DNA of 64,000 nt from Thermodesulfobacterium sp. TA1. GTDB lineage: Bacteria > Desulfobacterota > Thermodesulfobacteria > Thermodesulfobacteriales > Thermodesulfobacteriaceae. Position 1 is the stretch's first letter. Every line of letters starts with the position of its first letter. Both the position numbers and the translations under genes were made by a program. Location of the stretch: assembly GCF_008630935.1 (NCBI RefSeq), contig NZ_CP043908.1:1674001-1738000 (forward strand), read 5' to 3'. The notes below the pieces were generated by a model. The model saw only the letters and a list, made by a program, of their open reading frames with translations, had not been told where the DNA came from and searched no databases. Below, in pieces: positions 7,446 to 42,238 of the stretch.

Positions 7446-8284
7446 TATATAAGCCTATCTCCTAAACTAAAAAAGTTAAGTTCAGGAAGGGCAGGTATTA
7501 ATTTTTTCTTATATAAAAGCTCACAAAAATAAAGATAGGCTCTTTGTTTTAGCCCTGAAAAATCATACTCTAAGTGAGTAAGATACCGATGGACAAAATC
7601 CTTGGGGAGTTTTAGATGGCTTCGATCTACCACCTCTTTTAGGTTTGAAAAAGCCTTGGCTCTGGCGTAATAAAGGTTTAAACAAAAACTGGTAATCTCT
7701 CGCTTAAGGTTCATGAACTCTTTTTTCATGATAAAAAGAGCAAAAACAAAAGGAAAGTTAGTATATTTTAACCAAAGCTCGGCTAAATCGGTTATCAGAT
7801 ACCTATTTTCTTCATTTTGGAGGATTAAAGCTTCATCTCCTATGGCTAAATAACCTTTTAATTCCTTTTTTTCTTGTTCTGTTAAATCCTTCCAGTTTTT
7901 AGTAAGCTCTATATATTTAGGTTTGACACCAACAAAATCTTCAAGCAAGACCCTTAAAAGCAAAAAAGAACTTTCGGTTTCAGGGGTTATACCTATAGGT
8001 TTACCATCTAACAAAGATAGCGACTCTTCGTGATAAAGCACCACGCTTTTTACCTCTCCTACCGCACTGATAGACAAGTCTGGTAAAATCAAAAATTCCT
8101 TAGGGTTTTTTGCATAAACTACGCTTGAACTTAGGCTAGCACAAAGGGTCATTTGTCTAAGAAGTTGGTTAAGTCTTTTTGGTACCTCTAATACTAGTTC
8201 TATTCCCTGGTTCTTTTTAGGAAGGTAAAAAAGTAAAGGTAAGGTGTTTATATAAAGAGGAATCCCTATTTTTAGTTTATCCAT
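7445..8284 (-). CDS. mqnA: Chorismate dehydratase MqnA (futalosine pathway)
   Basis: Converts chorismate to 3-enolpyruvoyl-benzoate, the entry step of the futalosine route to menaquinone. The 279-residue protein fits the periplasmic-binding-protein-like MqnA fold: an N-terminal GIPLYINTLPLLFYL strand-loop, a SSSVVYAKNP segment, and IGITPETESSFLLLRVLL in the second lobe. It overlaps the amidohydrolase gene upstream by 8 nt. mqnA, a deaminase candidate, mqnC and ubiE in one run make a pathway cluster; mqnB, mqnD and mqnE are not in the window. Confidence 0.88.
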   Translation of the reverse strand: MDKLKIGIPLYINTLPLLFYLPKKNQGIELVLEVPKRLNQLLRQMTLCASLSSSVVYAKNPKEFLILPDLSISAVGEVKSVVLYHEESLSLLDGKPIGITPETESSFLLLRVLLEDFVGVKPKYIELTKNWKDLTEQEKKELKGYLAIGDEALILQNEENRYLITDLAELWLKYTNFPFVFALFIMKKEFMNLKREITSFCLNLYYARAKAFSNLKEVVDRSHLKLPKDFVHRYLTHLEYDFSGLKQRAYLYFCELLYKKKLIPALPELNFFSLGDRLI

Positions 8285-26379: not shown

Positions 26380-28074
26380 ATGCATCCTATTTTAAAGGGA
26401 GAAAACTGTAAAAAATTTCTGTTAGGCAATGAAGCCATCGTGAGAGCAGCCGTAGAAAGTTGTCTCCAGGTAGGGGCTGCTTATCCAGGGACTCCTTCTT
26501 CAGAAATAGGAAACAATCTTTTTCAGCTACAAAAAGACTTAGCTGGGCTTTATTTTGAGTTTGCGGTAAACGAAAAGGTAGCGATGGAAATCGTAGGAGC
26601 TGCTTCTGCCTGTGGTTTAAGGAGCCTTACCTGTATGAAACACGTAGGGTTAAATGTGGCAAGTGATGCTTTTATGACCTTAGCTTATGTAGGGGTGGAA
26701 GGTGGATTGGTAGTGGTTACCGCAGATGATCCTTCTTGTCATTCCAGTCAAAACGAGCAAGACAACCGTTATTATGCAAAGCTTGCTCAAGTGCCAATGT
26801 TTGAAGCTTATAACCCTCAAACCGCTTATCTTCTAACCAAAGAAGCCTTTTCTCTTTCTGAAAGGTTTAAATTGCCTGTGGTCTTAAGGACTACCACCAG
26901 GGTATCCCATGCCAGAGGGCAGGTAGAAGTAGAAACCGTGCCTTTTGATTTTTATCAAACCTTTAAAAAAGGATTTTTTAAAAAAGATCCTTTCAGGTTT
27001 GTCCCTGTGCCTGCAGTAGCCAGAAAACAACACAAACTTCTTTTAGAAAAATTAGAGGAGATGCAAAACTTAGCAAGTTCCTTTAGTCTTAATCAGTTCA
27101 TACCTAAAGGAAAACTTGGGGTATGTGCTTCAGGGGTTGCGGTTAACTATGTATTAGATGCATTAGAAGACCTGGGTTTAATAGAAGATGTCTCTTTACT
27201 TATACTTACCTTTACCCATCCTTTCCCTGAAAAATTAGCCTTAGATTTTCTCTCTCAAGTAGAAACCTGTGTGGTGGTTGAAGAGCTTGAACCTTATTTG
27301 GAAGACAATTTGAAGGTAATATCTTATACCCATGGACTTAAGACTAAAATCTTAGGTAAGAAAGAGAAACTTTTACCCAGATATTTTGAGTTTACCCCTA
27401 CCCAGGTCAAAGAAGCCTTGGCTAAGGCTTTTAACATAAAAGGTTTTAAAATCGAGGTTCCTCCTTTTGATTTTTCAACCAAACTTCCTGCAAGACCTCC
27501 GGTTCTCTGTCCGGGTTGTCCTCACAGAGAAACCTATAAGTTAATAAAAGAAGTTTTACAAGAGATGGGTATAGAGGAACATACCATCTATCCTACTGAC
27601 ATAGGCTGCTATACCTTAGGAATTCAACCTCCTATAAACATGGCAGACTATCTTCTTTGTATGGGCTCAAGCGTAGGTACCCCTTGTGGGTTTGATGTCG
27701 CTACTGACCAAAGGGTGGTAGCCTTTATCGGAGATTCTACTTTTTTCCATGCTGGGCTTTCTCCTTTGGTTAACGCTAAGTTTAACAAACATAACTTTAC
27801 TTTAGTGGTTCTTGACAACGACACCACCGCTATGACCGGGCATCAGCCTGTGCCTTCTCAAACGATAAAATCTCCTATTATCCAAGACCATCCAATCATA
27901 CCTATTAAAAAAATCGTAGATGCCCTTGATATCCCTTGCGTAGAAATCAATCCTTATAAAAAGGAAGAGGCAAAAGAGCTTATCCAGCCGTTGTTTGAAA
28001 AAAGAGAGCTTTCGGTAATTATTTCTAAAGCCCCTTGTATTTTATACAAAACAAAATCTCAAAAAGGGAGTTAA
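26380..28074 (+). CDS. iorA: Indolepyruvate ferredoxin oxidoreductase alpha subunit IorA, without the usual ferredoxin domain
   Basis: TPP-dependent oxidation of aryl pyruvates to acyl-CoA with ferredoxin as acceptor, together with IorB. The 564 residues show the N-terminal pyrimidine-binding domain (AAYPGTPSSEIG), a central domain, CPGCPHRET, and the TPP-binding motif GDSTFFHAG...NAKFN near residue 465. IorA proteins are usually about 600-650 aa and end in a two-cluster ferredoxin domain; here the chain ends after the TPP domain (ISKAPCILY) with no CxxCxxCxxxC motif. GGAGGGG precedes the start. IorB begins 3 nt after the stop. Confidence 0.9.
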   Translation: MHPILKGENCKKFLLGNEAIVRAAVESCLQVGAAYPGTPSSEIGNNLFQLQKDLAGLYFEFAVNEKVAMEIVGAASACGLRSLTCMKHVGLNVASDAFMTLAYVGVEGGLVVVTADDPSCHSSQNEQDNRYYAKLAQVPMFEAYNPQTAYLLTKEAFSLSERFKLPVVLRTTTRVSHARGQVEVETVPFDFYQTFKKGFFKKDPFRFVPVPAVARKQHKLLLEKLEEMQNLASSFSLNQFIPKGKLGVCASGVAVNYVLDALEDLGLIEDVSLLILTFTHPFPEKLALDFLSQVETCVVVEELEPYLEDNLKVISYTHGLKTKILGKKEKLLPRYFEFTPTQVKEALAKAFNIKGFKIEVPPFDFSTKLPARPPVLCPGCPHRETYKLIKEVLQEMGIEEHTIYPTDIGCYTLGIQPPINMADYLLCMGSSVGTPCGFDVATDQRVVAFIGDSTFFHAGLSPLVNAKFNKHNFTLVVLDNDTTAMTGHQPVPSQTIKSPIIQDHPIIPIKKIVDALDIPCVEINPYKKEEAKELIQPLFEKRELSVIISKAPCILYKTKSQKGS

Positions 28075-28077
28075 GCT

Positions 28078-28671
28078 ATGAAAAAGATAAAAGGTTTGGT
28101 GGTAGGTGTAGGTGGACAGGGTATTGTTCTTTTTACGAGGGTTTTAGGAGAGGCTTGTTTGAAGGCCAACCTTCCTATCATCGTTTCTGAGGTCCATGGG
28201 ATGGCTCAAAGAGGAGGTGTGGTTGAAAGCTCTATTTGTCTGTTTGGGAAAAGTCCTTATACCTCAGAAGGAGAGGCAGACTTTATCGTAGCCTTTGAAC
28301 CTGCTGAGGCTTTAAGGTTTGTCCAAAGAGCTAAAAAGGATACCAAATTTTTGATAAGCAAAAATCCTGTGTTACCTTTGGCTGTTAAAGAAGGATTGTC
28401 TACCTATCCAGACCTAACCCCCTTGTTTGAAGAGATATCTTCTTACTTTAACCACATCTTCTTTATCCCTGGAGAAGAATTGGCTAAAGAAGCTGGGTCT
28501 ACTAAAGCCCTAAACATGGTGATGTTAGGCGCAGCTACAGCCTTAGAACTATTTCCTATAGATAAAGAGGCCTTAGTTTCTGCCATGATAGCACTTTTAC
28601 CTGAAAAACTTCATCAGGTAAACCTAAAGGCCTTTGATTTAGGTTTTAACTATATAAAATCTTTGGATTAA
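28078..28671 (+). CDS. iorB: Indolepyruvate ferredoxin oxidoreductase beta subunit IorB
   Basis: Gamma-domain partner of IorA; 197 residues. The family opening VVGVGGQGIVLFTRVLGEA and the EVHGMAQRGGVVESSICLF block are clear, as is ADFIVAFEPAEALRF. Encoded 3 nt after iorA, so the two are made together. The 3' end overlaps the convergent RNA methyltransferase gene by 33 nt. Confidence 0.92.
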   Translation: MKKIKGLVVGVGGQGIVLFTRVLGEACLKANLPIIVSEVHGMAQRGGVVESSICLFGKSPYTSEGEADFIVAFEPAEALRFVQRAKKDTKFLISKNPVLPLAVKEGLSTYPDLTPLFEEISSYFNHIFFIPGEELAKEAGSTKALNMVMLGAATALELFPIDKEALVSAMIALLPEKLHQVNLKAFDLGFNYIKSLD

Positions 28672-29457: not shown

Positions 29458-30249
29458 TTAAAACTCGGACTTAGTCCTTTCTATACAAGCATAGGCGTTA
29501 TGAGCATGAATAGACTCAAAGTTTTCTACTTCTACAAAAAACCAGCTTACTTCAGGATGTTCCCAAAGTCGTTTGGCCACAGCCCTTACCACATCCTCAA
29601 CAAACCTTGGGTTTTCATAAGCGACCTCTGTAACAAACTTTTCATCTGGTCTTTTTAAAAGAGAATAAACCGGGCTTGAGGCTGAATATTCAGCTATTTC
29701 TATCAACTCTTCTAACCAAATAAACTTTTTAAACCGTACCTTAAGGGTAATCAAGCTTCTTTGATTATGGGCTGAAAAACGACTGATAGATTTAGAGCAA
29801 GGGCAAAGGGTCATCACCGGAACCTTAGCTCCTATAATCAGGTCTTTCTTGCCTTCAGTATAACTGGCTAACAAAATACCTTGATACTCCATCAAAGAAG
29901 AAATCTGAGTAACCGGGGCTTTTTTTTGTAAAAAATAAGGAAAAAACATCTCTAAATGTGCGCTTTTAGCAGAAAGTCTTTGAGAGAGTTTTTTCAAAAG
30001 TTTTATCACGTTTTTTACATGAATCTCCCCTTTAAACTCGTTTATCACCTCGATAAATCGGCTCATGTGAGTGCCTTTAAACTTAGAAGGAAGGTCCACA
30101 TATAGATTAAGCTCTGCTACCGTATGCTGTAGCCCTTTTTCTCGGTCAAGCACTGTAACCGGATGTTTAAACCCTTTAATTCCTACTTTGTCTATATCTA
30201 TCTTTTCTTCTGGAGGAAGACTTTGTACGTCAATTAGTTCTGGCTTCAT
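29458..30249 (-). CDS. folE2: GTP cyclohydrolase FolE2 (type IB)
   Basis: First step of folate synthesis in organisms without, or in addition to, FolE1. The 263-residue protein has the FolE2 opening (PELIDVQSLPPEEKIDIDKVG), KGTHMSRF near residue 60, and the catalytic Cys in MTLCPCSKSIS. ATG 30249 is chosen because it overlaps the acsE stop as TGATG; a TTG 15 nt upstream is the alternative. Its place downstream of acsE fits supply of tetrahydrofolate to the Wood-Ljungdahl methyl branch encoded in the same run. Confidence 0.92.
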   Translation of the reverse strand: MKPELIDVQSLPPEEKIDIDKVGIKGFKHPVTVLDREKGLQHTVAELNLYVDLPSKFKGTHMSRFIEVINEFKGEIHVKNVIKLLKKLSQRLSAKSAHLEMFFPYFLQKKAPVTQISSLMEYQGILLASYTEGKKDLIIGAKVPVMTLCPCSKSISRFSAHNQRSLITLKVRFKKFIWLEELIEIAEYSASSPVYSLLKRPDEKFVTEVAYENPRFVEDVVRAVAKRLWEHPEVSWFFVEVENFESIHAHNAYACIERTKSEF

Positions 30250-31145
30250 CAGAGTTCTAACCAAAATTCTGAAAAGATGTTTTTCCCAAGAAGCACGTTG
30301 GTAGTTTTATAAATCTCCAACTCTTTAGGGCTTAAATCTTTAGGGTCTATTTCTTCTTCATCCATAATCCTTTCCACCAACCTTACCCAGTCGGGATGTA
30401 ATCCTTTGGCTATTTCTACAAGTTCTCGGTCATATACATTTAAAATGGCTGCATATAAATTATACTTCATAAGCATCATAAGCAGCACTCTATTTAGATA
30501 AGGTCTTAGTTTAGGATTGATCCCATTAGAAACGTTGGAAAGGCCTACGATGCTTTTAGCTCCTGGGGCCAAATCTTGTAGCATACTAAGAAAATTTAAA
30601 GCCTCTATTATCTGCTCTGCCCCTAAGGTAATAGGGGTAATGATAGGGTCCACCCAAATTTTTTCATTAGGAATACCTGCCTCGTTAAGATTCATAATAA
30701 GGTCTACTGCTAAAGCAGCCCGTTCGTTGGCATCCCTTGGCAAACCTTCATCCCCCCATAAAAGCGCTACCACCTCGCACCCGTACTCTGCAGCAAGGGG
30801 GATGAGTCTTTCCATCCTTTCTTTTTGAGCAGAGATAGAGTTCATCAAAAACCGTTTGGGAGCTTTTGAAACCTTAAGTCCTGCAGCCATAGCTTCTTCG
30901 TTGGTAGTATCTAAAGATATGGGAAGGTCTACCTCTGATTCCACTAACGTTACTATCCAAACTGCAAGCTCCTTTCCGTCTTTTTTGGCTGGGCCTATGT
31001 TAAGGTCTAAATAATCTGCCCCTAACTCTTTTTGCTCTTTTGCCATTTTTTTTATAGGCTCCGCTTCCCTGGCTTTGATGGCAGGACCTATGGTTTTAGA
31101 CATAATGTTGATGCTTTCTCCTACACAAACCACTTTTTTTTCCAT
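30249..31145 (-). CDS. acsE: Methyltetrahydrofolate:corrinoid/iron-sulfur protein methyltransferase AcsE
   Basis: Moves the methyl group between methyl-H4folate and the Co centre of the corrinoid iron-sulfur protein (AcsC/AcsD). The 298-residue TIM-barrel pterin-binding protein shows GESINIMSK near the N-terminus, GADYLDLNIGPAKKDG, PISLDTTNEEAM and IVGLSNVSNG motifs of the family. It is somewhat longer than the roughly 260-aa acetogen enzymes, with a C-terminal extension of about 35 residues. It lies between acsC and folE2. Confidence 0.93.
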   Translation of the reverse strand: MEKKVVCVGESINIMSKTIGPAIKAREAEPIKKMAKEQKELGADYLDLNIGPAKKDGKELAVWIVTLVESEVDLPISLDTTNEEAMAAGLKVSKAPKRFLMNSISAQKERMERLIPLAAEYGCEVVALLWGDEGLPRDANERAALAVDLIMNLNEAGIPNEKIWVDPIITPITLGAEQIIEALNFLSMLQDLAPGAKSIVGLSNVSNGINPKLRPYLNRVLLMMLMKYNLYAAILNVYDRELVEIAKGLHPDWVRLVERIMDEEEIDPKDLSPKELEIYKTTNVLLGKNIFSEFWLEL

Positions 31146-31167: not shown

Positions 31168-32526
31168 TTAAGATCTAAGTTTTTTTGCTAACTCTTTTAA
31201 GGCTGTAGGTAATCCATTTGCTTCTCTCGGACCTATCACTACCTCCCAACCTCCGAGCTCCTCTTCCAGCTCCCCTTTGATGCTGGCTACATATCCAGGT
31301 ATTACTAAAGTTCTGTGTTTTATCTTTTCGGCAATACCGGACCTTTTCACAAACTCTGCGATGTTGTCTGCATTAAACTTTCCTGCAGCCCAAGCAGTAA
31401 GCACAGAAAGCCCGTCTGTATCCTTTACTAAAAGCCAACAAGGAACCCTACTTCCTTCTATCTCTCCAGACACGATAAAATAGGTTAAAGCAAAATTACA
31501 GGTTACTACCACCGGAGAAAACGCATCTGGTCCGTTTATAGGATAAATCCCCTCTTCTACCACCAAAGGTTTCTGTGGGTCTGAATAAAGGTTGAACCTT
31601 TCTACCAACAAAGGGAATAACAACTCAGCCTTTAGGTCTGAAACCAAAATAATGCTGGCATATTTGGCTACAAAAATACTGGCTAAAAGATATTGCTCAG
31701 AAAGGTCTCCTGTATACCTATCCATAAAGGTTATCACCGGAAAGCCAAAAGGTTTAAACCGTTTTTTTATTGCTGCACGTCTTATGATAACTAAGTCCTC
31801 GAAAAGCTCCTTAGGATGTAAGGCTCCACTGTCTAAAACCAAGTCTTTTAAACCCTGTTTGGTTAATCCTTCAACCAAAGGGACCAACTCTCCTAAGTAA
31901 TTTGCAGAAACCACCAAAGGGACCTTTTTTTCTAAAGCCATTTGCCCCCAAGAAGATAAATTTTCTACTTTTCCTGGATAAACAAGGGGAATCGAGCCTC
32001 CACATGCCTCTATAGCCTGCTTTACTGTTTCTATGTCTCGGGAATCTAAAACTATAGCCAACTCTGGTAGTTCTTCCCTTACCCTTTTTATAAGGGTTAT
32101 AAATCTCTCTCCATTTCCCTCATCTCTAACACAAACGACTTCAGGCTTAAGGAGGTTGCCTACCCTTTCCCATCTAAGCTGTTGATAAGCCTTAATCCGT
32201 CTTGTAATTTCTTGGTCTTCCATAGAGGTATTTAAATAGGTTCCGATAAGAGGAGGGTTTTCAAACTTTTTTTCGTGTCTAAAAAGGACGGTCTCTCCTC
32301 CTAATTTATAAGGTGTTTCTGAAGTTCCTATAACAACCGTCCTTATAGGAGGTGCGGTTGCCTCGGCTATTTCTTCTTTAACCTTAGGGTCTACATAAGG
32401 GCATTGGTCTATCTCTGCCTGTCCTGCTGCCACCTTCATCGCAAAAGCAAGACAAGTAGGAAACCCACACTCTTTACAGTTTTTCTTGGGAAGAAGTTTC
32501 ATTATTTGAATGCCTGTAAGCGCCAT
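31168..32526 (-). CDS. acsC: Corrinoid/iron-sulfur protein large subunit AcsC
   Basis: Carries the corrinoid-interacting domain and a [4Fe-4S] cluster used for reductive activation of Co. The 452-residue protein begins with the cluster motif at C17, C20, C25 and C42 (NCKECGFPTCLAFAM then QCPYV), followed by TIM-barrel and C-terminal corrinoid-binding domains. It partners with the AcsD domain that is fused to MetF in this genome. Placed 36 nt after acsB. Confidence 0.93.
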   Translation of the reverse strand: MALTGIQIMKLLPKKNCKECGFPTCLAFAMKVAAGQAEIDQCPYVDPKVKEEIAEATAPPIRTVVIGTSETPYKLGGETVLFRHEKKFENPPLIGTYLNTSMEDQEITRRIKAYQQLRWERVGNLLKPEVVCVRDEGNGERFITLIKRVREELPELAIVLDSRDIETVKQAIEACGGSIPLVYPGKVENLSSWGQMALEKKVPLVVSANYLGELVPLVEGLTKQGLKDLVLDSGALHPKELFEDLVIIRRAAIKKRFKPFGFPVITFMDRYTGDLSEQYLLASIFVAKYASIILVSDLKAELLFPLLVERFNLYSDPQKPLVVEEGIYPINGPDAFSPVVVTCNFALTYFIVSGEIEGSRVPCWLLVKDTDGLSVLTAWAAGKFNADNIAEFVKRSGIAEKIKHRTLVIPGYVASIKGELEEELGGWEVVIGPREANGLPTALKELAKKLRS

Positions 32527-32562: not shown

Positions 32563-34782
32563 TTATTCTATCAAAGGAGGAAGGGTTAAAACCGGGTGAT
32601 TAACCTTTTCTACCCAAGTTTTTACCTCTTCCTCAGTGTTTGCCACTGTTTCGTCTGCTATCTTTTCTACCAAATCTGGAATTCCTATCTCTTCTGCCCT
32701 TTGTTGAAGTTTATCTTTTAACTCTTCTTTTAAGTTTTTAGGCATCCATACAACCCTTTTAAGCCCTCCTTCAGCCATTAAAAACTTGGGAGATACTATA
32801 TAATGTTTAGCTACCCCTAAAAATCCTGGGGTTTGTACTCCACCTCCTACCATTCCTGCCATGGTAGAAAATTTCATCCCTGTAGGGGTTAGCCCTGTAT
32901 AGTCTCTGTTTACTATCATGATTCCGTTTACCTCAGGAAGTACAGCAGCGATACACTCAAAACATCCACAAGCAGTCATAGGGTCTTTCATAATACTATA
33001 AAGGGCTACCTGTTGTACCTTACCTCTGGAAGCTTCTTTAACGAATTCGTTTATCCCAGAAAAATATCCATAAACCGGGTCTAAACCTTCTCCTTTAGGA
33101 ATGGGACGATTAGGTCCTGTAGGATTTATCTCATAACCTGCTTTGCCATCAAGCCAGTTATATGCCCCACACATACCCACTCTTTCAGGGGTAATTACAC
33201 ATACATGAGAAGGAGCAAAACTCTGGCATAAAGTGCAAGAATAGAAAACGTCTACCTTTTCGTCAACTAATCCAGCAATCCGTTCATCTCTAACCCGATA
33301 AATCTCTTTAGCTTTCTCTAAAATCTCTCTAACCTCAGGCTCTCGAGTATATATTTTTACCTGCACTTTATCCAAGATGGCGCTAAATTTTTCCTTAATC
33401 TTGGCATAAAGTATTAAGCCTAAGTGTTTAAAGGTAAAACCTTTTTCTACTGCTTGTTTAGATATCCTAAGCCACATCAAATGCCTTTGTCCTACATGCA
33501 TAACCCCTTGGGCATAGTTTATTAAATAATGGAACTGCCTTTCTATGATAGGTTCAAAATCTTCTTGCATGTTAGCCCCTGCTACCTCAACCACCACCGC
33601 TAAAGGCAACCTATAAGGAGGTCCCTGTTCTGAAAGGTCTTTTAGGTCTGAAATGTCTGGACCTATAACCTCTATCTTCCCATCTTCTACCTCGTCTAAA
33701 GGTTTAGATACCAAAAGCTCAACCCCTAAGGTTTTACCACCTCCACACTCTAAATACAAGTCTTCTTTCCTGACCCTTTCTCCTTCAAAAGAGGCTGCAT
33801 AGGCTACAGGAATATCAAGCTTAACCGAGGTAATTTTAAGCCCCCTTACCTCTAAGGCTGTATCCACCATCTTATCAACAGGCACATTAGCCACTAAATG
33901 TTCATAAAGACATACTCCAGGAACTTTTATCTCAGGTAGGTCCACGTTGGTTATTACCGGACATCCCAGGTTAAAAACACCCAAGGCATTAGCCGCCAAC
34001 TCTGGAGAGGGAGCACCGAAAGACAACACAAAGGCAAAAGTTCGGTCTTTGTTGTAAAGAAGATTTTTTTGTGCTTCTCCTGGTTTAACACCTCCAAAAG
34101 ACATGGCAACCCTGCAAGCAAATCCTATAGCAAAGGCAACAGAACTTATCTCAGGACCAAAAGGAACCAGCCTGGTTGACCAACCAAGTTGAACTCCTTC
34201 TTTAGCAAGTAATTCTGCTAAACTAATCCCTTTCCCTGTCCCGTGAAGGAATACATACAGATTTTTTTCTTGTAGCTCTCTGATGATTTTTATAGCACTT
34301 TCTATGTCTTCAGGAGCCCCTAAAATAGCTGCAAAACCAGGGGCTGTGCCATCTACAAACTCAACCCCTCTTTTTCTAAAAACCACGTCATCTGCCGCAC
34401 CAAGCCAAAGTTTGCCCTCTTCAGGATCCTCAGAAAGACAATAAAAATCCGGTTGTTTAAGATATCTAATAGCCTCGATAATTTCCTCAGCAAAAAGGGC
34501 TACAATGCCTGCATCTAAAGCCTTACCCCAAAAGAAAAAATCAGAAGAACTATCCTTAGGCAAAAGCTTTTTAATCTCTTCCAAAACCTCTCCACAATCA
34601 CCTAACCTTTTTACAGGATATCCTAAAAGCGCATAGATTATAGGAAAAAAATAAGCAGTATTAGGAAACCCAACAGCCTTTTCTTTCCCAAAAACCTTTA
34701 CAGCTTCTTCATATTCCTCTAAGGCCTTTTCAAAAATCAAATAAGCCCCTTTTATACCTATCTCACAAACTATCTTAGACAT
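32563..34782 (-). CDS. acsB: Acetyl-CoA synthase (CODH/ACS alpha subunit) AcsB
   Basis: Nickel-iron enzyme that assembles acetyl-CoA from a methyl group, CO and CoA, or cleaves it in reverse. The 739 residues match bacterial AcsB length (about 730). A-cluster ligands are visible in the C-terminal domain: CTLCQSFAPSHVCVITPERVG with MCGAYNW, and the Ni-binding CGC in TACGCFECIA. A bacterial-type N-terminal domain that contacts CO dehydrogenase is present. The normal partner, a catalytic AcsA/CooS, is not encoded beside it; the operon instead has a CooS-like protein without metal ligands. Confidence 0.95.
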   Translation of the reverse strand: MSKIVCEIGIKGAYLIFEKALEEYEEAVKVFGKEKAVGFPNTAYFFPIIYALLGYPVKRLGDCGEVLEEIKKLLPKDSSSDFFFWGKALDAGIVALFAEEIIEAIRYLKQPDFYCLSEDPEEGKLWLGAADDVVFRKRGVEFVDGTAPGFAAILGAPEDIESAIKIIRELQEKNLYVFLHGTGKGISLAELLAKEGVQLGWSTRLVPFGPEISSVAFAIGFACRVAMSFGGVKPGEAQKNLLYNKDRTFAFVLSFGAPSPELAANALGVFNLGCPVITNVDLPEIKVPGVCLYEHLVANVPVDKMVDTALEVRGLKITSVKLDIPVAYAASFEGERVRKEDLYLECGGGKTLGVELLVSKPLDEVEDGKIEVIGPDISDLKDLSEQGPPYRLPLAVVVEVAGANMQEDFEPIIERQFHYLINYAQGVMHVGQRHLMWLRISKQAVEKGFTFKHLGLILYAKIKEKFSAILDKVQVKIYTREPEVREILEKAKEIYRVRDERIAGLVDEKVDVFYSCTLCQSFAPSHVCVITPERVGMCGAYNWLDGKAGYEINPTGPNRPIPKGEGLDPVYGYFSGINEFVKEASRGKVQQVALYSIMKDPMTACGCFECIAAVLPEVNGIMIVNRDYTGLTPTGMKFSTMAGMVGGGVQTPGFLGVAKHYIVSPKFLMAEGGLKRVVWMPKNLKEELKDKLQQRAEEIGIPDLVEKIADETVANTEEEVKTWVEKVNHPVLTLPPLIE

Positions 34783-34810: not shown

Positions 34811-36958
34811 TTAAGTCCAAAATAGACTAAACATTTTTTTGGTTAAAGCTACTGTTTTGGGATGTCTGAGGATAAAAAGTTCCCCTCCTGCTAAAGCTAG
34901 ACACAAGGCAGTGATTGTCTCCATCATCACCCCTCTCATTTCAGCCTCTCCCATAAGCTCATCAGAAGGAAGGCTTACCTCTTTAGTTTTCCATACCTCT
35001 CTACCTATATTACAGATAAAAGGGTTTTGAAGCTTTTGGTCGTTGGCATAAAGGGCAGCAAGCCTTATTCTTTCCATCACAGAGTAGGTATATTCAAGCC
35101 CATATCCAAGAGCCCCTACAGAAGGGTCCATGATGATTTTTTCTAAAGGCACCCCTAAGTTTTCAAGTAAAATGTTTAACTGTTTGGCTATGTTTACATC
35201 GATAGGACTTTGGGCTATTACCGGCAGTTGATAACCCAAGGCCACCGCACCTAAAGTACGGTAATTTTCCTCAACTATAGGCCCAAAAAATACGTTGTCA
35301 TCTTTTATAACCTCTGCCACCTCTTTAAGCACTTCTGTGTCTTTTTCTGGATTATCACTCCCCCATATAATCAACGGGACCTCTACCGCTTCTCTAACCT
35401 TTTGTATAACCTTTTTGGCATGGTCTGGTCCCAAGTCTAAATAATTAGGGTCTGTACCTAATAAGTACACACAGATGGCTTCTGCCCCATATTCTTCTAC
35501 ACATTTTTTAGCCCAAGCCCCTGGGTCATGCCATACATCTCTAAAGTATTTAGCAACCACCTCTGGATAATCTTCCGGAACTACGTCTAAAACCTCCATA
35601 GCGACCTTTAACGGCTGGCCTAAATTACCCTCAAAGCCATGAAAAGGTAAAACCTCAGCTCCTCCGACGTTTAATGCTTTGTCTCCCTTTCCAAAGAATA
35701 TTTCTCTAATCTTGCCTGAACTAAGTTCACGATACAACTCTTCAGGAAGCCCTCTTATCCTTTCGGAAACACTGCGATATTCGCCTTTTATAATCTTTAT
35801 GGGTTCTGGCTTTGGAGCAGAAGTTTTTGCCTCGGGTTCCTTTACTAAAACCGGCTCTTTGGGCATTACTGAAACAACCGGTTTTTCTAAAGGCCTTTCT
35901 TTTACTGGCTCCTCCTTTTTCCCTGTAATTAAGGTTTCAAGCCTTAAAAGATGAGCTTTCAAGTTTTTTATCTCCTCTTCTAACTGCCTTTTATCTTCGT
36001 CTTTAAAAGAAAAGATCTTCTGCTCTTCTACGAGGTCTTCTGGAGGTAAGGGACGAGGATAAAAACCTGTTTTCTTAAGGATTTCAGGCAAGTACTCTTC
36101 CCAGCCTATAGCCATCAAATGAAATCCTCTTACTCCAGGAATTTCTTTTATTTTTTCTATCAACTCTACCGCTATCTGGATGCCTTCTTCTAAGGGGTCT
36201 TTAGCCTCGCGCATCCTTTTAACCAAATCTTCAGGAACGCAAGACCCTGGCAAATTGCTTTTAATATATTCGATCATACGAAAAGATTTAGGAGGAACGA
36301 TACCAGCCAAGATATATGCCTTTTCCGTAAGTCCTTCGTTGTGGGCGATATACATAAACTGTTTAAACTTGGTTACATCATAAACTAACTGAGTCTGAAT
36401 AAACTCAGCCCCTGCCCTAATTTTTTTAGCCAATCTTCTTACACGATATTCTGTTGGATCAGCAAAAGGGTTTTCTGTAGCCCCTAAAAAATAGGCTGGC
36501 CTTTCTCCCTTTATTTCTTCTCCGTTTAAAAACTTTCCTTCTTTAAGTTTATTAACCATCGCTATCAGCTGAACAGAGTCTAGATCAAACACCGGTTTTG
36601 CCTCGGGATGGTTACCAAACTTTGGATGGTCTCCTGTAGTGCAGAAAAGATTCTTTATTCCTAAGGCCCAAGCTCCAAGAAGGTCTGACTGCATAGCAAT
36701 CCGGTTTCTATCTCTACAGGTCATCTGCAGGATAGGCTCTATACCCTCAGACATAAGGGCTAAACAACCTGCTAAGCTTGAAAGCCTTACCATGGCAACT
36801 TGACAGTCAGTCACATTCGCTGCGTCTACATATCCTTTAAGCACCCTTGCCTTCTTTTTTAAAGGCTCAAGACTTGCGTTCTTCGGTGGAGCAAATTCAC
36901 AAGTAATAGCCATATAACCAGATTTTAAAACCCTTTCTAAATGACTTCTAAACCTCAC
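34811..36958 (-). CDS. metF-acsD: MetF-AcsD fusion: methylenetetrahydrofolate reductase plus corrinoid/iron-sulfur protein small subunit
   Basis: A single 715-codon frame. Residues 1-300 are a methylenetetrahydrofolate reductase TIM barrel (ITCEFAPPKNA, NVTDCQVAMVRLSS, LFCTTGDHPKFGNHPEA, FIQTQLVYD). Residues 318-345 look like a coiled coil and 346-390 form a Pro/Lys/Glu-rich linker. Residues 392-715 are a full AcsD domain (FGGAE-type opening NVGGAEVLPFHGFEG, LGTDPNYLDLGPDHA, SPIDVNIAKQLN, DPSVGALGYGLEYTYSVMERIR). The enzyme that makes methyl-H4folate is thus covalently tied to one subunit of the protein that receives the methyl group. The start is GTG with GGGAGAGG upstream. metV, the usual MetF partner, is immediately upstream. 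Confidence 0.92.
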   Translation of the reverse strand: MRFRSHLERVLKSGYMAITCEFAPPKNASLEPLKKKARVLKGYVDAANVTDCQVAMVRLSSLAGCLALMSEGIEPILQMTCRDRNRIAMQSDLLGAWALGIKNLFCTTGDHPKFGNHPEAKPVFDLDSVQLIAMVNKLKEGKFLNGEEIKGERPAYFLGATENPFADPTEYRVRRLAKKIRAGAEFIQTQLVYDVTKFKQFMYIAHNEGLTEKAYILAGIVPPKSFRMIEYIKSNLPGSCVPEDLVKRMREAKDPLEEGIQIAVELIEKIKEIPGVRGFHLMAIGWEEYLPEILKKTGFYPRPLPPEDLVEEQKIFSFKDEDKRQLEEEIKNLKAHLLRLETLITGKKEEPVKERPLEKPVVSVMPKEPVLVKEPEAKTSAPKPEPIKIIKGEYRSVSERIRGLPEELYRELSSGKIREIFFGKGDKALNVGGAEVLPFHGFEGNLGQPLKVAMEVLDVVPEDYPEVVAKYFRDVWHDPGAWAKKCVEEYGAEAICVYLLGTDPNYLDLGPDHAKKVIQKVREAVEVPLIIWGSDNPEKDTEVLKEVAEVIKDDNVFFGPIVEENYRTLGAVALGYQLPVIAQSPIDVNIAKQLNILLENLGVPLEKIIMDPSVGALGYGLEYTYSVMERIRLAALYANDQKLQNPFICNIGREVWKTKEVSLPSDELMGEAEMRGVMMETITALCLALAGGELFILRHPKTVALTKKMFSLFWT

Positions 36959-36971
36959 CTGACCTCTCCCA

Positions 36972-37640
36972 TTAAAATGTTAGGTCTTCCCTTTCTCTTT
37001 TTCTTGGACCTTCTCCGTAGGTTGTCCTCCAATCCTTTGGAGGAAAAATCTCATCAAGATTGTTAAGTTCTCCTCTATTTTGGAGTCTCGTAACGATTTC
37101 ATACCAAACACAAGGTATTTCCGGATTGACCTCGCATCTTTCTGTTTGAGACCCTCCACATGGTCCATTCAAAAGGCCTTTAGGACATCTGGCAATCGGA
37201 CAAAGCCCTGCAGTCTTATCGATAAAACAATCTCCGCAGGCTCGGCATCTCTCCTCCCAGACCCCAACCCCAAGATGTGCTCCTATAAACAAGGTATCGG
37301 TTCCAGGATAAACCCTTAACTCAGGATAAAGGTCGGCTATTAAGTTTACTCCTACCCCACAAGCTAAGCTTAATACTGCGTCGGCTTCTTTAGCAACCTC
37401 AGGTAAACCCTTTAATCCTACAGGATCACACTGCCTGATAAGGGTTTTTCCAACTGCGGTAAACTTTTTATCCTCCTTTGCCGCTATAAGGTTTAAACTT
37501 GAAACCAAAAGCTTTACCTCCCGGTCCCCTCCGGTAGCACAAATCCCAGAACATCCTCTACAGCCTAAAACTAAAACCTTTTTAAACTTACTTAAAATTT
37601 CCCAAAGTTTTTCTACAGGTTTTAACTCAGTAATTACCAT
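36972..37640 (-). CDS. metV: MetV, cysteine-rich partner of methylenetetrahydrofolate reductase
   Basis: Small zinc/iron-sulfur subunit that in acetogens forms the MetVF core enzyme. The 222 residues are rich in Cys: VLGCRGCSGICATGGDREV near the N-terminus, and CRACGDCFI, LCPIARCPKGLLNGPCGG and CEVNPEIPCVWYE towards the C-terminus, which matches the MTHFR C-terminal zinc-binding family. It sits 13 nt upstream of metF-acsD and 12 nt downstream of an MvhD-like gene, as in clusters where MetVF accepts electrons through Hdr/Mvh-type proteins. Confidence 0.88.
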   Translation of the reverse strand: MVITELKPVEKLWEILSKFKKVLVLGCRGCSGICATGGDREVKLLVSSLNLIAAKEDKKFTAVGKTLIRQCDPVGLKGLPEVAKEADAVLSLACGVGVNLIADLYPELRVYPGTDTLFIGAHLGVGVWEERCRACGDCFIDKTAGLCPIARCPKGLLNGPCGGSQTERCEVNPEIPCVWYEIVTRLQNRGELNNLDEIFPPKDWRTTYGEGPRKREREDLTF

Positions 37641-37652
37641 AAGCCTTCTCCG

Positions 37653-37988
37653 TTAAACTTTAAAAACCTCTTTCCACAAAGCATCTTCCTTTTCTTTACT
37701 AAAATAATCAAACCTTATCCTGTAGTCTTCTGCCCATCTTCCTAAAAATTTTTTTATGGTCTCTATCCTTTTTTCTGCCCTAAGATTTCCTATCCTTCCC
37801 TTACATATACCTTTTTTACAGGCTAAAACAAACACCTGCTGAAATCCCTCTTCCAAAACTTTCAACAACTCAACTGAAGTTAAACTTCCTGCACAGTCTA
37901 AAGTTTTAAAAACTATGTTTTCTTTTTCCTTAAACCTTTCTTCTAACCCAAGCTCCTTGCAACCAAAAACCAAAGTCTTTATCTTCAT
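37653..37988 (-). CDS. MvhD/FlpD-like small electron-transfer protein
   Basis: The 111-residue protein resembles the MvhD/FlpD family (hydrogenase iron-sulfur subunit, PF02662), which carries a [2Fe-2S] cluster and links HdrA-type flavoproteins to electron donors. Candidate ligands are C10, C32, C57 and C62, in the family pattern LDCAG...GFQQVFVLACKKGICKGRIGN; the GN after the fourth cysteine is typical. It is shorter and more divergent than MvhD proper (about 130-140 aa). Between metV and a CooS-like ferredoxin protein, it probably belongs to the electron path for methylene-H4folate reduction. No HdrA is encoded nearby. Confidence 0.65.
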   Translation of the reverse strand: MKIKTLVFGCKELGLEERFKEKENIVFKTLDCAGSLTSVELLKVLEEGFQQVFVLACKKGICKGRIGNLRAEKRIETIKKFLGRWAEDYRIRFDYFSKEKEDALWKEVFKV

Positions 37989-38004: not shown

Positions 38005-39474
38005 TTAAACGACCTTAATGGTTATTGCCTCAGAAGGACATTCTCCCACACAAACACCACAACCTGTACATCTTTGCAAATCTATTAAAAGGCTGTTTAA
38101 ACCATGGTCTATAAAAATGGCGGAAAAAGGACAGACCTTTAAACAGGCAAAACAGGTGATACACCTTTGTCGGTTTAGCTCAGCTATTTTTAGCGGTGAA
38201 ACCTTAGAGGGGAACCTATTCCTTATACTTTGTAAAACCACCTTTTGATAAAAAGATATATGCTCTGAAGAAGATAAAGCCCTCCTCATTTCCATGTCAA
38301 AAAGCACACGAGGCTTTGGCTGTTCTATACCTAAAGCTTTTCTTTTTGCTTCTATCTTTTGCAAAATGACTTCTAAAATCGGTTCTATCGGGCTAACCCC
38401 TTCAAAAAAGGTAAACCCTTTACTAAACAGATTAAAAGGTAAAAACTCCTTTCCTATACCTAAAACCTCTACCCCTAAACCTAAAAAGGCTGGAATAAAA
38501 AGCCCTGGGGTTTCCCCTTTGAGATGTTTCTCAGAACAGTTTAAAACCACCAAAGGTAGTTCTGCAAAAGTTTTTCCTAAACCTCCATAAGATACCATTT
38601 CCGACATGATAGAAAAAACCTCAGCCTGTCCTCTTAAACCTAATACCGGAGGCAACCCAAAAGCTTCTAAAAACTCTCTAAGCCTATCCCCAGCCTCCTC
38701 CATCCACTCAAAAAAAATTGCCTTTTTCTTTCCGTTTTCTTTTGTATCTCCTTTTACATACCATACCCATATGTTTTCTTTTAAAAGTCCTTTAATTAAA
38801 GAAACATAAGGTTCTTCTAAAAAAGAGCCTTCAAATAATACCAAACCTTTTAGATAGCCTGCTTTTAAGTTTTCATTAATAGGACCTAAGGAAGCCCGAA
38901 AAGTTCCCCCAAGGGTGTGCATCAAGTCTTCACATCCGATCCCTTCTATAAACCTTTCCTTTTCCTCTTCTTCTATGTCTTCCTCAACAAAACTCAACCC
39001 AAGACCCTGAAAACAAGACCTAAAAATTTCTACCCCAAAAACATAAGCCAAAGAAAGCTTCATCAACTGTTTATTAAAAGTAGCTTCTTCTATCTTTTTA
39101 GAAAAAATCTGATCATAGGTAAAAGCTATTTCTTTTTCTATACCATCAGGTAAAAGCCCTTGGTCTTTTAGCTGAAAAAACATCTCTTGAGGAAAGAAAA
39201 CACCTGCCTGGTTTAGCAGGTTATTATCAGTAAAAAGTCTTAAAAGTTTTTTTATGGTTTCACTCAACAAAACCCTTTCGGGAAGATTAGCCTCTAATCC
39301 TAAAAGGCGAATTAAAAGATTTAATTTTTCTGGTTTTTTTAAAGATATAGAATTTCCAGAAAATAAGGCTTTTTCTATTTTAAACAGATATCCTTTAAGC
39401 TTAAAAAGATGTAAACCGTAGTCCTTAACCAGACTTAACCCTAAGTCTTTTAACTGTTCCTTAGCGTCTAACAA
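38005..39474 (-). CDS. CooS/AcsA-like protein lacking cluster ligands, with C-terminal two-cluster ferredoxin domain
   Basis: Not a recognised named protein. Residues about 100-370 read like a Ni-CO dehydrogenase catalytic subunit: LLPDGIEKEIAFTY recalls the conserved ILPxGIDREIxE segment, LMKLSLAYVFGVEIF the LaDGWGGSMIA segment, and FGLPPVLGLRGQAEV the PPVLHxGSCVDN segment. The cysteines and histidine that ligate the C-cluster there are replaced (RGQAEV for GSCVDN), the tGC motif is replaced by YVKGDT, and the N-terminus has none of the B- and D-cluster cysteines. Residues 438-479 hold two ferredoxin motifs (C438, C441, C444, C448 and C469, C472, C475, C479). It should not oxidise CO. A role as electron carrier or as structural stand-in for CODH is inference. 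TTG start behind GAGGT. Confidence 0.7.
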   Translation of the reverse strand: MLDAKEQLKDLGLSLVKDYGLHLFKLKGYLFKIEKALFSGNSISLKKPEKLNLLIRLLGLEANLPERVLLSETIKKLLRLFTDNNLLNQAGVFFPQEMFFQLKDQGLLPDGIEKEIAFTYDQIFSKKIEEATFNKQLMKLSLAYVFGVEIFRSCFQGLGLSFVEEDIEEEEKERFIEGIGCEDLMHTLGGTFRASLGPINENLKAGYLKGLVLFEGSFLEEPYVSLIKGLLKENIWVWYVKGDTKENGKKKAIFFEWMEEAGDRLREFLEAFGLPPVLGLRGQAEVFSIMSEMVSYGGLGKTFAELPLVVLNCSEKHLKGETPGLFIPAFLGLGVEVLGIGKEFLPFNLFSKGFTFFEGVSPIEPILEVILQKIEAKRKALGIEQPKPRVLFDMEMRRALSSSEHISFYQKVVLQSIRNRFPSKVSPLKIAELNRQRCITCFACLKVCPFSAIFIDHGLNSLLIDLQRCTGCGVCVGECPSEAITIKVV

Positions 39475-39551: not shown

Positions 39552-40457
39552 CTAAAACTGAACTTCTGATGGAAGTCCTTTTATGGCTTTAGCCGCCTCT
39601 AAGGTATTTTTCATCAGCATGGTAATCGTCATCGGACCAACTCCTCCAGGAACCGGGGTAATCAAAGAGGCTTTTTGTTTAACCGTTTCAAAGTCTACAT
39701 CTCCGCAAAGGATAGGTTTGCCTTCAGGAGAAGTTCCGATCCTATTAACCCCTACATCTATCACCACCACCCCTTCTTTTACCATGTCTGCTGTAATAAA
39801 CCTTGGTCTACCGGCTGCTACTATCAGGATGTCTGCTCTTCTGGTATGAAAAACAAGGTCTTTAGTAGCGGTATGACAAACCGTAACCGTTGCATTACCT
39901 ACAGGTTTAAGCTTTTGCATAAGAAGTATGGCTAAAGGTTTACCTACGATGTTACTTCTTCCGATGATAACCACCTCTTTACCCTCTACCTCTACTCCAG
40001 CTTCTTTTAAAAGAAGCAAAATACCGTAAGGTGTGCAAGGAATAAACGTAGGACTACCCATAACCAACCTTCCTAAGTTAAAAGGATGAAAACCGTCTAC
40101 GTCTTTCTCAGGGTTTATGGTGCAAATTACCTTTTTTTCGTCTATATGCTTAGGGAGGGGAAGCTGAACCAAAATACCATGGATGTTTGGGTCTTGGTTA
40201 TAGCGCTCTATAAGGGCTAATAGTTCTTTTTCTGAAATGTCTCTTGGAAGGGTTTCTTGCACTGAATAAAAACTTAATTCTTTAGCTAATCTTTGTTTAG
40301 CGGTAACATAAGAAACTGAAGCTGGATTGTCTCCTACCAAAATAGTAACCAAACCTGGAGTTATTTTATGTTTTTCTTTTAACTCTTCTACCTCTTTTTT
40401 AATTTGTTCTCTTATTTTTTTTGCTACTTCTGTCCCTTTTAAAATTTTAGCCTCCAT
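39552..40457 (-). CDS. folD: Bifunctional methylenetetrahydrofolate dehydrogenase / methenyltetrahydrofolate cyclohydrolase FolD
   Basis: Second and third steps of the methyl branch. The 301-residue protein has the catalytic YVTAKQRLAKEL (Tyr and Lys) near residue 50, ILVQLPLPKHID near residue 95, DVDGFHPFNLGRL near residue 120 and the NADP-binding VVIIGRSNIVGKPLA near residue 163. The C-terminal TPVPGGVGPMTITMLM is standard. Encoded 14 nt after fhs. Confidence 0.95.
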   Translation of the reverse strand: MEAKILKGTEVAKKIREQIKKEVEELKEKHKITPGLVTILVGDNPASVSYVTAKQRLAKELSFYSVQETLPRDISEKELLALIERYNQDPNIHGILVQLPLPKHIDEKKVICTINPEKDVDGFHPFNLGRLVMGSPTFIPCTPYGILLLLKEAGVEVEGKEVVIIGRSNIVGKPLAILLMQKLKPVGNATVTVCHTATKDLVFHTRRADILIVAAGRPRFITADMVKEGVVVIDVGVNRIGTSPEGKPILCGDVDFETVKQKASLITPVPGGVGPMTITMLMKNTLEAAKAIKGLPSEVQF

Positions 40458-40471
40458 AGTCTTTAACCCCT

Positions 40472-42238
40472 TTATTCAATTCCTATAATTTTTCCTGTTT
40501 TTAAATCAACCTCTATCTTACGAAACCTTGGATTGGAAACCGTTCCAGGCATAAGGTTTATCTCACCAGAAATAGGAACTATTAACCTTGCCCCTCTAAA
40601 AACCATGATATCTCTCACGTTAAAAACCCAATCTTTAGGAACCCCTCTTAATTTAGGATTGTCTGAAAGTGAAAGACTGGTTTTAGCCATACAAACAAAA
40701 AGCTCTGAAAGGTCTTCGTTTTTAAGTTGGTTTAGTTTTTGTTCGGCTAAGGGAGAAAAGCATACCTCTTTTGCTCCATATATTTCTTTCGCGATTTTCT
40801 CTATTTTAGCCTGCAAAGTTTCTTTGCTTTCATAAAGAAAAGAAAAATTGTTTGGGGTTTCGCAGGCCTCTATCACTGCCTCAGCCAGTTCAAGGGCTCC
40901 TTCTCCTCCTTTTAACCAGTGGTCTGAACAAACCGCAACCACTCCCATTTCTTGGCAAAATCTTTTAACCACCTCTATTTCTTCTTTAAAATCATAGGTA
41001 AACCGATTGATACAAACTACAGGTTTTATACCGCTTTTTTGGATGATGTTTATACAGTGGGATAAAAGCTCACATCCTTTTTCTACTAAGTCTGGTCTTA
41101 AAGATTGATACTCTTGGGGAAGAGGTTTATTTTTTTGAGGTATAGGTGCTCCTCCGTGGTATTTTAAAGCCCTTAAAGTAACTACCAATACCACAGCCTG
41201 AGGAGAAAGACCAGATAACCTACATTTAATATTCCAAAACTTTTCATACCCTATTTCTGCCCCAAAACCCGATTCAGTTATATGATAGTCTGAGAGTTTT
41301 AATCCTAAATAGTCTGCGATGATAGAAGATTGTCCTAAAGCTATGTTGGCAAAAGGCCCGGTGTGGATAAAAACAGGTTGACCTTCCATCGTTTGAGCAA
41401 GGGTGGGATTTATAGCCTCTACCAACCAAGCTGTCATCGCTCCTGCTACTTCCAAGTCTTCAGCGGTGATAGGTTTTCCCTTTTTATCATAAGCTAACAC
41501 TATATTGCCTACCCTTTGTCTTAAATCTTTTAAATCTTTAACAATAGAAAGAATGGCCATCAGTTCTGAAGCAGGTGCTATCCAAAACTTACTTTCCATC
41601 AAAACGCCATCTTTTTTTTCACCAAGACCTATCAGCACCTTTCTTAAAGCCTGGGCACAAAAGTCTATTATCCAGGGAAACTCTACTCTTTTTGGGTCTA
41701 TGTTAAGTCTTTTGAGCCCTATTTTTGCAAACTCTTCATCTGAATACATCTCTTCGTAGTGGAGCCTTGAGGTAAGGGCTACCATGCCAAGGTTATGGGC
41801 GTTCATCACGGCGTTTATATCTCCGGTGAGCCCAAAAGAAATTTTTTCTAAAGGTATTACTTGAGATAAACCACCTCCAGTCCCTCCTCCTTTAAGGTTA
41901 AACGTAGGACCTGAAGAAGGCTGTCTAATAGCACCACTTACTTTTTTTCCTTTTTTAGCCAAACCCTGGATAAGACCTATGGTGGTAGTAGTTTTACCTT
42001 CTCCAAAAGGAGTGGGAACTATAGCCGTAACGTTTATATACTTACCATTAGGCTTGTTTTTTAACCTTTTCATTACTTTAGCATAATCAACCTTAGCCAG
42101 ATAGTAGCCATAAGGGATAAGCTCTTCTGGTAAGATCCCAGCCTCTTCTGCAAGTTCAAAAACTTTTTTCATTTGTTTCTCAGCTTGATAGGCTATCTCC
42201 CAGGTAGACATCTTCGTTGGGTCTGTTTTTCTTTTCAT
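40472..42238 (-). CDS. fhs: Formate-tetrahydrofolate ligase Fhs
   Basis: ATP-dependent activation of formate to 10-formyl-H4folate, entry to the methyl branch. The 588-residue protein is slightly longer than usual (about 556). The nucleotide-binding segment TPFGEGKTTTTIGL near residue 75, GGGTGGGLSQVIPLE, FGAEIGYEKFWNIKC and the C-terminal GEINLMPGTVSNPRF are clear. First gene of the minus-strand run, behind a consensus-like promoter. Confidence 0.95.
   Translation of the reverse strand: MKRKTDPTKMSTWEIAYQAEKQMKKVFELAEEAGILPEELIPYGYYLAKVDYAKVMKRLKNKPNGKYINVTAIVPTPFGEGKTTTTIGLIQGLAKKGKKVSGAIRQPSSGPTFNLKGGGTGGGLSQVIPLEKISFGLTGDINAVMNAHNLGMVALTSRLHYEEMYSDEEFAKIGLKRLNIDPKRVEFPWIIDFCAQALRKVLIGLGEKKDGVLMESKFWIAPASELMAILSIVKDLKDLRQRVGNIVLAYDKKGKPITAEDLEVAGAMTAWLVEAINPTLAQTMEGQPVFIHTGPFANIALGQSSIIADYLGLKLSDYHITESGFGAEIGYEKFWNIKCRLSGLSPQAVVLVVTLRALKYHGGAPIPQKNKPLPQEYQSLRPDLVEKGCELLSHCINIIQKSGIKPVVCINRFTYDFKEEIEVVKRFCQEMGVVAVCSDHWLKGGEGALELAEAVIEACETPNNFSFLYESKETLQAKIEKIAKEIYGAKEVCFSPLAEQKLNQLKNEDLSELFVCMAKTSLSLSDNPKLRGVPKDWVFNVRDIMVFRGARLIVPISGEINLMPGTVSNPRFRKIEVDLKTGKIIGIE

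Follow-up and report, generated by a model that had tools for sequence, protein, structure and literature searches.

A MetF–AcsD fusion in Thermodesulfobacterium and its relatives, and its possible role in tethering the corrinoid protein to the methyl branch of an operon with no recognisable CO dehydrogenase

According to PMC11474084, the corrinoid iron–sulfur protein stands alone in acetogens and belongs to a stable complex in methanogens, where separate subunits of the ACDS complex hold it together with acetyl-CoA synthase (ACS) and CO dehydrogenase (CODH). In the locus described here, by contrast, its small subunit AcsD is joined by a covalent arm to the reductase MetF. In PMC12289521, AcsD (the CoFeSP beta subunit) is modelled against the N-terminal domain of ACS, and extensive motion is described for both ACS and the corrinoid domain. 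For the methyl branch, the Moorella gene set hdrABC-mvhD-metVF, as given in PMC5736913, is similar to our operon in having a MetV-like gene beside MetF and an FlpD/MvhD-like gene beside MetV. However, our operon has none of hdrA, hdrB and hdrC, containing just FlpD, MetV, MetF and a ferredoxin domain on the protein in the CODH slot, and its MetF carries AcsD. The AcsD chains 2h9a_B and 9fzy_E, the latter from a CODH/ACS complex, share their fold and domain with our AcsD at 39% and 38% identity, respectively (Foldseek alignments); both are stand-alone proteins of about 310 residues, whereas ours forms the C-terminal end of a chain that begins with MetF.

The gene lies in a 64,000-nucleotide stretch (positions 1,674,001 to 1,738,000 of contig NZ_CP043908.1, hereafter the window) from Thermodesulfobacterium sp. 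TA1, a heat-loving, sulfate-reducing bacterium. It runs on the minus strand from 36958 to 34811 as a single frame of 715 codons, from a GTG start to the stop, with zero internal stops. Residues 1–306 (36041..36958) form the MetF domain, in which Pfam PF02219 (MTHFR) matches residues 7–298 over profile positions 2–287 of 287 (E 4.6e-37, 128.3 bits against a cut-off of 24). Residues 307–406 (35741..36040) form a linker, and residues 407–715 (34811..35740) form the AcsD domain, matched by PF03599 (CdhD) at 419–662 (E 7.3e-44, 150.5 bits, cut-off 24.8) and by the NCBIfam AcsD subfamily NF003376 at 411–711 (375 bits, cut-off 280); the exception model NF040759 (WLP_AcsD) gives 294 bits, under its cut-off of 430. 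The AlphaFold2 model (mean pLDDT 79, pTM 0.53) consists of two barrels, a helix and a disordered arm, and Foldseek matches its AcsD part to 2h9a_B (TM 0.94 by target) and its MetF part to the MTHFR 8eac_B (TM 0.81). The original prediction of one 715-codon frame holding a complete MetF, a linker and a complete AcsD was thus borne out by Pfam, NCBIfam, AlphaFold2 and Foldseek. Comparison of the window with T. hveragerdense gives dN/dS values of 0.06 for MetF, 0.31 for the linker, 0.08 for AcsD and 0.06 for AcsB, so that both fused domains and ACS are, judged from sequence comparison, under strong purifying selection.

The fused MetF scores 71.5 bits against the NAD(P)H MTHFR equivalog TIGR00676, far under the E. 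coli-type cut-off of 293.7, which would suit a dead scaffold whose methyl-tetrahydrofolate (methyl-THF) is made by another reductase. We consider this very improbable, since the genome has no second MetF, the PF02219 match is full length in a domain with the low dN/dS given above, and a MetV partner adjoins it. In addition, the genome encodes a full-length MetE, which should require methyl-THF; a partner for a core-MetE was rejected as an explanation because this MetE is full length.

The window genome is a single contig of 1,829,881 bases, in which the fusion is the sole match to the MetF half and to the AcsD half, and the pooled loci encode 51 distinct fusions, each read from a single open frame, with linkers of 100–460 aa (median 278). 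Together these exclude chance or a sequencing indel that removed a stop, an outcome named beforehand as one that would undo the prediction; because the fused proteins come from independent genomes, an assembly artefact has next to no probability. In a phylum-wide search of 395 genomes, drawn evenly across the phylum, at least 40 (a lower bound) have both halves in one verified frame, and the genus adds 4 more. A separate scan of genome contigs found 13 fused loci among the best 80 of 200, titled Thermodesulfobacteriaceae, Caldimicrobium, Desulfobulbaceae/Desulfobulbus or 'Deltaproteobacteria'. Named carriers include T. thermophilum, T. hveragerdense and T. hydrogeniphilum, together with metagenome-assembled genomes of Caldimicrobium and Desulfobulbaceae, and the fused rows of the trees span 14 families (f1, f2, f3, f31, f50, f57, f63, f66, f67, f78, f80, f85, f101 and f102 in our numbering).

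The AcsD tree places every one of the 49 fused sequences, along with 2 split ones, in a single clade (SH-aLRT 100), the split pair being nested within it. The fused or unfused state changes twice over 75 rows in this tree and twice over 80 rows in the MetF tree, both built by a quick method, unrooted and without bootstrap; this is consistent with one origin. Many independent origins were rejected, as two changes per tree fit one gain and one loss. Three apparent further fusions (L122, L125, L126) were also rejected, since on translation each proved to have stop codons separating its genes. Of 14 genomes from the genus, 8 carry the fusion, 4 have split genes and 2 yielded MetF alone; the split genes, each with its own start, occur in 4 of the 12 congeners that encode acetyl-CoA synthase. 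In one of them (G065), a G-rich Shine–Dalgarno-like stretch and then an ATG come after the MetF stop, and AcsD of all four retains about 75–110 additional N-terminal residues, which indicates a real fission rather than an error. The fusion is therefore real, old and widespread; the four re-split congeners show as well that it is not essential and that tethering is dispensable.

Fission in these four relatives took place upstream of a linker helix that the window shares, which raises the question of whether the fused chain is cut, or AcsD re-initiated inside the linker, to yield two separate proteins as in other bacteria. The original prediction had stated that the frame contains no internal stop or restart signal; the former holds, and the latter does not, as a Shine–Dalgarno-like stretch lies about 8 nt before the in-frame TTG codon 333. 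However, this pair is missing from the three nearest relatives, comparable signals arise by composition in 41 of the 51 Glu-rich linkers, and intact frames are retained across the 14 families, all of which make separate products unlikely. On balance, we lean towards expression as one bifunctional polypeptide of about 80 kDa.

The linker of the window fusion consists of a helix (residues 320–345) and a Pro/Lys/Glu-rich arm (347–391) that AlphaFold2 predicts to be disordered (pLDDT < 50). Fusion linkers in general are rich in Glu, Ala, Lys and Pro and nearly free of Cys (33 of 15,527 residues), and the position of the helix is conserved across 20 aligned linkers. A profile HMM of the helix, built from 20 fusion linkers including the window's own, matches the window fusion at residues 314–348. 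It also matches the N-terminus of AcsD in all four split genomes (iE 7e-11 to 9e-8) and, again in all four, the N-terminus of the protein in the CODH slot (E 5e-8 to 3.7e-5), while the top unrelated ORF gives E 0.1 and the top shuffled protein 5.5. No match was obtained in the CODHs of the fused Thermodesulfobacteria loci (0 of 7 distinct proteins) or in proteins of the 489-aa type described below (0 of 4). As all four split genomes belong to a single lineage, the helix on their CODH-slot protein counts as one event. The coiled-coil likeness of such helices can be convergent, though the E-values are clear against those of other ORFs. The long linkers found elsewhere have a coiled coil as well as a helical block that is conserved, the latter read by eye in all 30 linkers from outside Thermodesulfobacteria and caught only in part by a sequence pattern; no convincing copy of the block was found elsewhere within the fetched loci. 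The one very long linker scanned with Pfam (L148) gave TPRs only, and the idea that the linker holds a folded catalytic domain was rejected.

These features bear on whether the fusion means anything beyond bookkeeping, i.e., neighbouring operon genes that became joined and fixed MetF and AcsD at 1:1, with no functional coupling. MetF and AcsD are indeed adjacent operon genes in the unfused relatives L122, L125 and L126, and the linker is loosely constrained (dN/dS 0.25–0.35). However, such a joining does not account for a helix of conserved position, for its retention on AcsD after fission and its presence on the CODH-slot protein, or for linkers elsewhere that reach 460 aa and contain TPRs and another conserved block, exceeding the needs of a spacer. 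We thus regard uncoupled joining as a lesser possibility, and somewhat favour the reading in which the linker acts as a tether, keeping the corrinoid protein attached to the MetV/MetF reductase.

Other joins of the corrinoid protein occur in related operons. AcsC is fused to AcsE in T. hydrogeniphilum, which also has the MetF–AcsD fusion. Three of the four split genomes share this AcsC–AcsE join, and the sequence retrieved from the remaining one breaks off within acsC. These AcsC–AcsE fusions lie at 12732–15170 of L034, 458–2848 of L132, 628–2958 of L111 and 976–3363 of L205. AcsD of unfused relatives often bears a C-terminal Pro/Ala/Glu/Lys arm of about 200 aa, and in two loci such an arm runs into CODH, giving AcsD–arm–CODH proteins of 1134 aa (L068, 1468–4872) and 1146 aa (L074, 7995–11435). 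Taken together, the AcsD–CODH, AcsC–AcsE and MetF–AcsD joins suggest that the corrinoid protein has repeatedly been tethered to one neighbour or another. As a separate observation, the unfused AcsD at 7992–9557 of L044, as in most AcsD loci from L044 to L110, is about 510–540 aa long and ends in an arm and a short terminal helix; the arm of the L044 protein has no Pfam match.

The operon reads, on the minus strand, fhs, folD, a 489-aa protein, flpD, metV, metF-acsD, acsB, acsC, acsE and folE2. Formate–tetrahydrofolate ligase (fhs, 40472..42238; Pfam and NCBIfam) and folD (39552..40457; Pfam) are followed, after the 489-aa protein (38005..39474), by an FlpD/MvhD-like electron carrier of 111 aa (37653..37988; PF02662) and the MetV-like partner of 222 aa (36972..37640; PF12225, MTHFR C-terminal). 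Downstream of the fusion lie acsB (32563..34782), encoding acetyl-CoA synthase (1027.7 bits, cut-off 800), acsC (31168..32526; Pfam and NCBIfam), encoding the large subunit of the corrinoid iron–sulfur protein, acsE (30249..31145), encoding a methyl-THF:corrinoid protein methyltransferase that scores below the NCBIfam cut-offs, and folE2 (29458..30264; Pfam and NCBIfam), encoding a GTP cyclohydrolase. AcsB retains the CODH-binding N-terminal domain and the cysteines and CGC motif of the A-cluster, at positions that we take to be those of the cluster. CCG domains occur elsewhere in the window genome, and one fused relative (L034) has an HdrA-like protein, two FlpD and a ferredoxin protein. Near the operon, on the opposite strand, lies a two-gene 2-oxoacid:ferredoxin oxidoreductase of the POR type (26380–28671, plus strand).

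In the proposed mechanism, the MetF barrel with MetV and an electron supply from FlpD and ferredoxin would form methyl-THF, and the AcsD barrel with AcsC would make up the corrinoid iron–sulfur protein, which would receive the methyl group from AcsE and deliver it to AcsB. The short amphipathic helix of the linker would dock or oligomerise, and the disordered, charged arm would let the AcsCD head swing between AcsE, AcsB and a resting place. With the tether, a carrier that otherwise diffuses freely would belong permanently to a MetVF–AcsCD–AcsE–AcsB assembly, and local concentrations would rise. Swinging-arm carriers such as the lipoyl E2 of pyruvate dehydrogenase possess a flexible Pro/Ala/charged arm and a small helical docking element; the likeness is one of arm architecture, with no sequence relation claimed, and here it is a corrinoid heterodimer that serves as carrier. 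The docking, the assembly and the benefit of the tether seem to us slightly better than an even bet. It had been proposed that the tether either channels methyl-THF or fixes a MetVF–AcsCD supercomplex. The supercomplex is in line with the operon order, the shared helix and the AcsC–AcsE and AcsD–CODH fusions, whereas direct folate channelling is not required by the tether model, and the methyl group would in any case have to pass via AcsE.

The pathway setting assumed in the original prediction differs from the one we find, as the genome has no recognisable catalytic CODH, even though its ACS operon looks intact. The 489-aa protein occupies the CODH (acsA) slot and shows CODH ancestry over residues 176–412 (about 30% identity to CODHs by blastp, E down to 3e-30), followed by a C-terminal 2×[4Fe–4S] ferredoxin domain. 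All 49 Foldseek matches of its model with E below 0.001 are CODHs (best E 2.6e-12), a result biased by the CODHs in the alignment behind the model. With the ligand numbering that we assume for CODH, alignment shows zero ligands of clusters C, B and D retained in this protein or in its relatives in L031, L131 and L032. Across the window genome, TIGR01702 finds two weak stretches only (31 and 30.5 bits, cut-off 478), the 489-aa protein itself scoring 31 bits, and the sole PF03063 match is a protein in a 545-aa frame whose length and family suggest the hybrid-cluster type; a CODH elsewhere in the genome was therefore rejected. Another one-contig genome (G028) is likewise without a CODH recognisable by TIGR01702, and T. 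thermophilum (G204) and G396 have a 489-aa-type protein plus a canonical CODH elsewhere. The ferredoxin tail is closest to the C-terminus of a 180-aa Fe–S protein that adjoins flpD in relatives, so that an operon deletion may have joined a CODH remnant and this protein. With a dN/dS of 0.32, the 489-aa protein is constrained but evolves fast.

Altered CODHs occur in other members of the genus as well. By alignment, the CODH-slot protein of the four split genomes is without the D-cluster cysteines and some of the cluster-C ligands, and T. hydrogeniphilum has one normal CODH and a second, altered one. These CODH-slot or second CODH proteins of Thermodesulfobacterium lie at 7988–10195 of L132, 8093–10393 of L111, 1381–3642 of L168, 1159–3459 of L169 and 728–2506 of L034 and, as read from their aligned ligands, form a decay series beside intact ACS.

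In PMC7005905, AcsB and AcsCD of Dehalococcoides are suggested to obtain methyl groups by cleaving acetyl-CoA, the full pathway being absent; in comparison, the window retains fhs, folD, metF and a ligand-free CODH-like protein, and its MetF is fused to AcsD. With this precedent for acetyl-CoA cleavage, and with no recognisable catalytic CODH in the genome, fixation of CO2 to acetyl-CoA by the operon cannot be assumed. The genome also encodes an acetyl-CoA synthetase. Tentatively, the methyl branch and ACS could have been rewired to run CODH-free, with CODH turned into a ligand-free scaffold whose ferredoxin domain would feed electrons to MetVF and perhaps activate ACS or the corrinoid protein, the MetF–AcsD tether holding the carrier, and ACS either using external CO or cleaving acetyl-CoA, made from acetate, for methyl groups.

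No description of a MetF–AcsD fusion was found in the open-access text searched, including that on organisms of the phylum, in agreement with the original remark that the fusion is not known to have been described; specifically, the passages searched in PMC10553843, PMC12827605, PMC4911364, PMC7463578, PMC8780430, PMC9751629, PMC7117923, PMC3584212 and PMC5736913 have none, and those of PMC5736913 mention only an HdrB–HdrC fusion. In PMC4911364, TDIS_1006 of Thermosulfurimonas dismutans is entered as a methylenetetrahydrofolate reductase; as its locus tag stands ahead of acsE (TDIS_1009), it is probably a MetF–AcsD fusion. Published pathway maps can thus hide the fusion.

Retention of the fusion across 14 families points to an assembled Wood–Ljungdahl enzyme, which sulfur-metabolising Thermodesulfobacteriota would have built by tethering the corrinoid protein to MetF. 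If so, a single polypeptide would allow a direct test of substrate hand-off in this pathway. Most surprising is the CODH-free setting, and the genus offers a natural experiment in ACS function without a CO source, with CODH decaying beside a conserved ACS.
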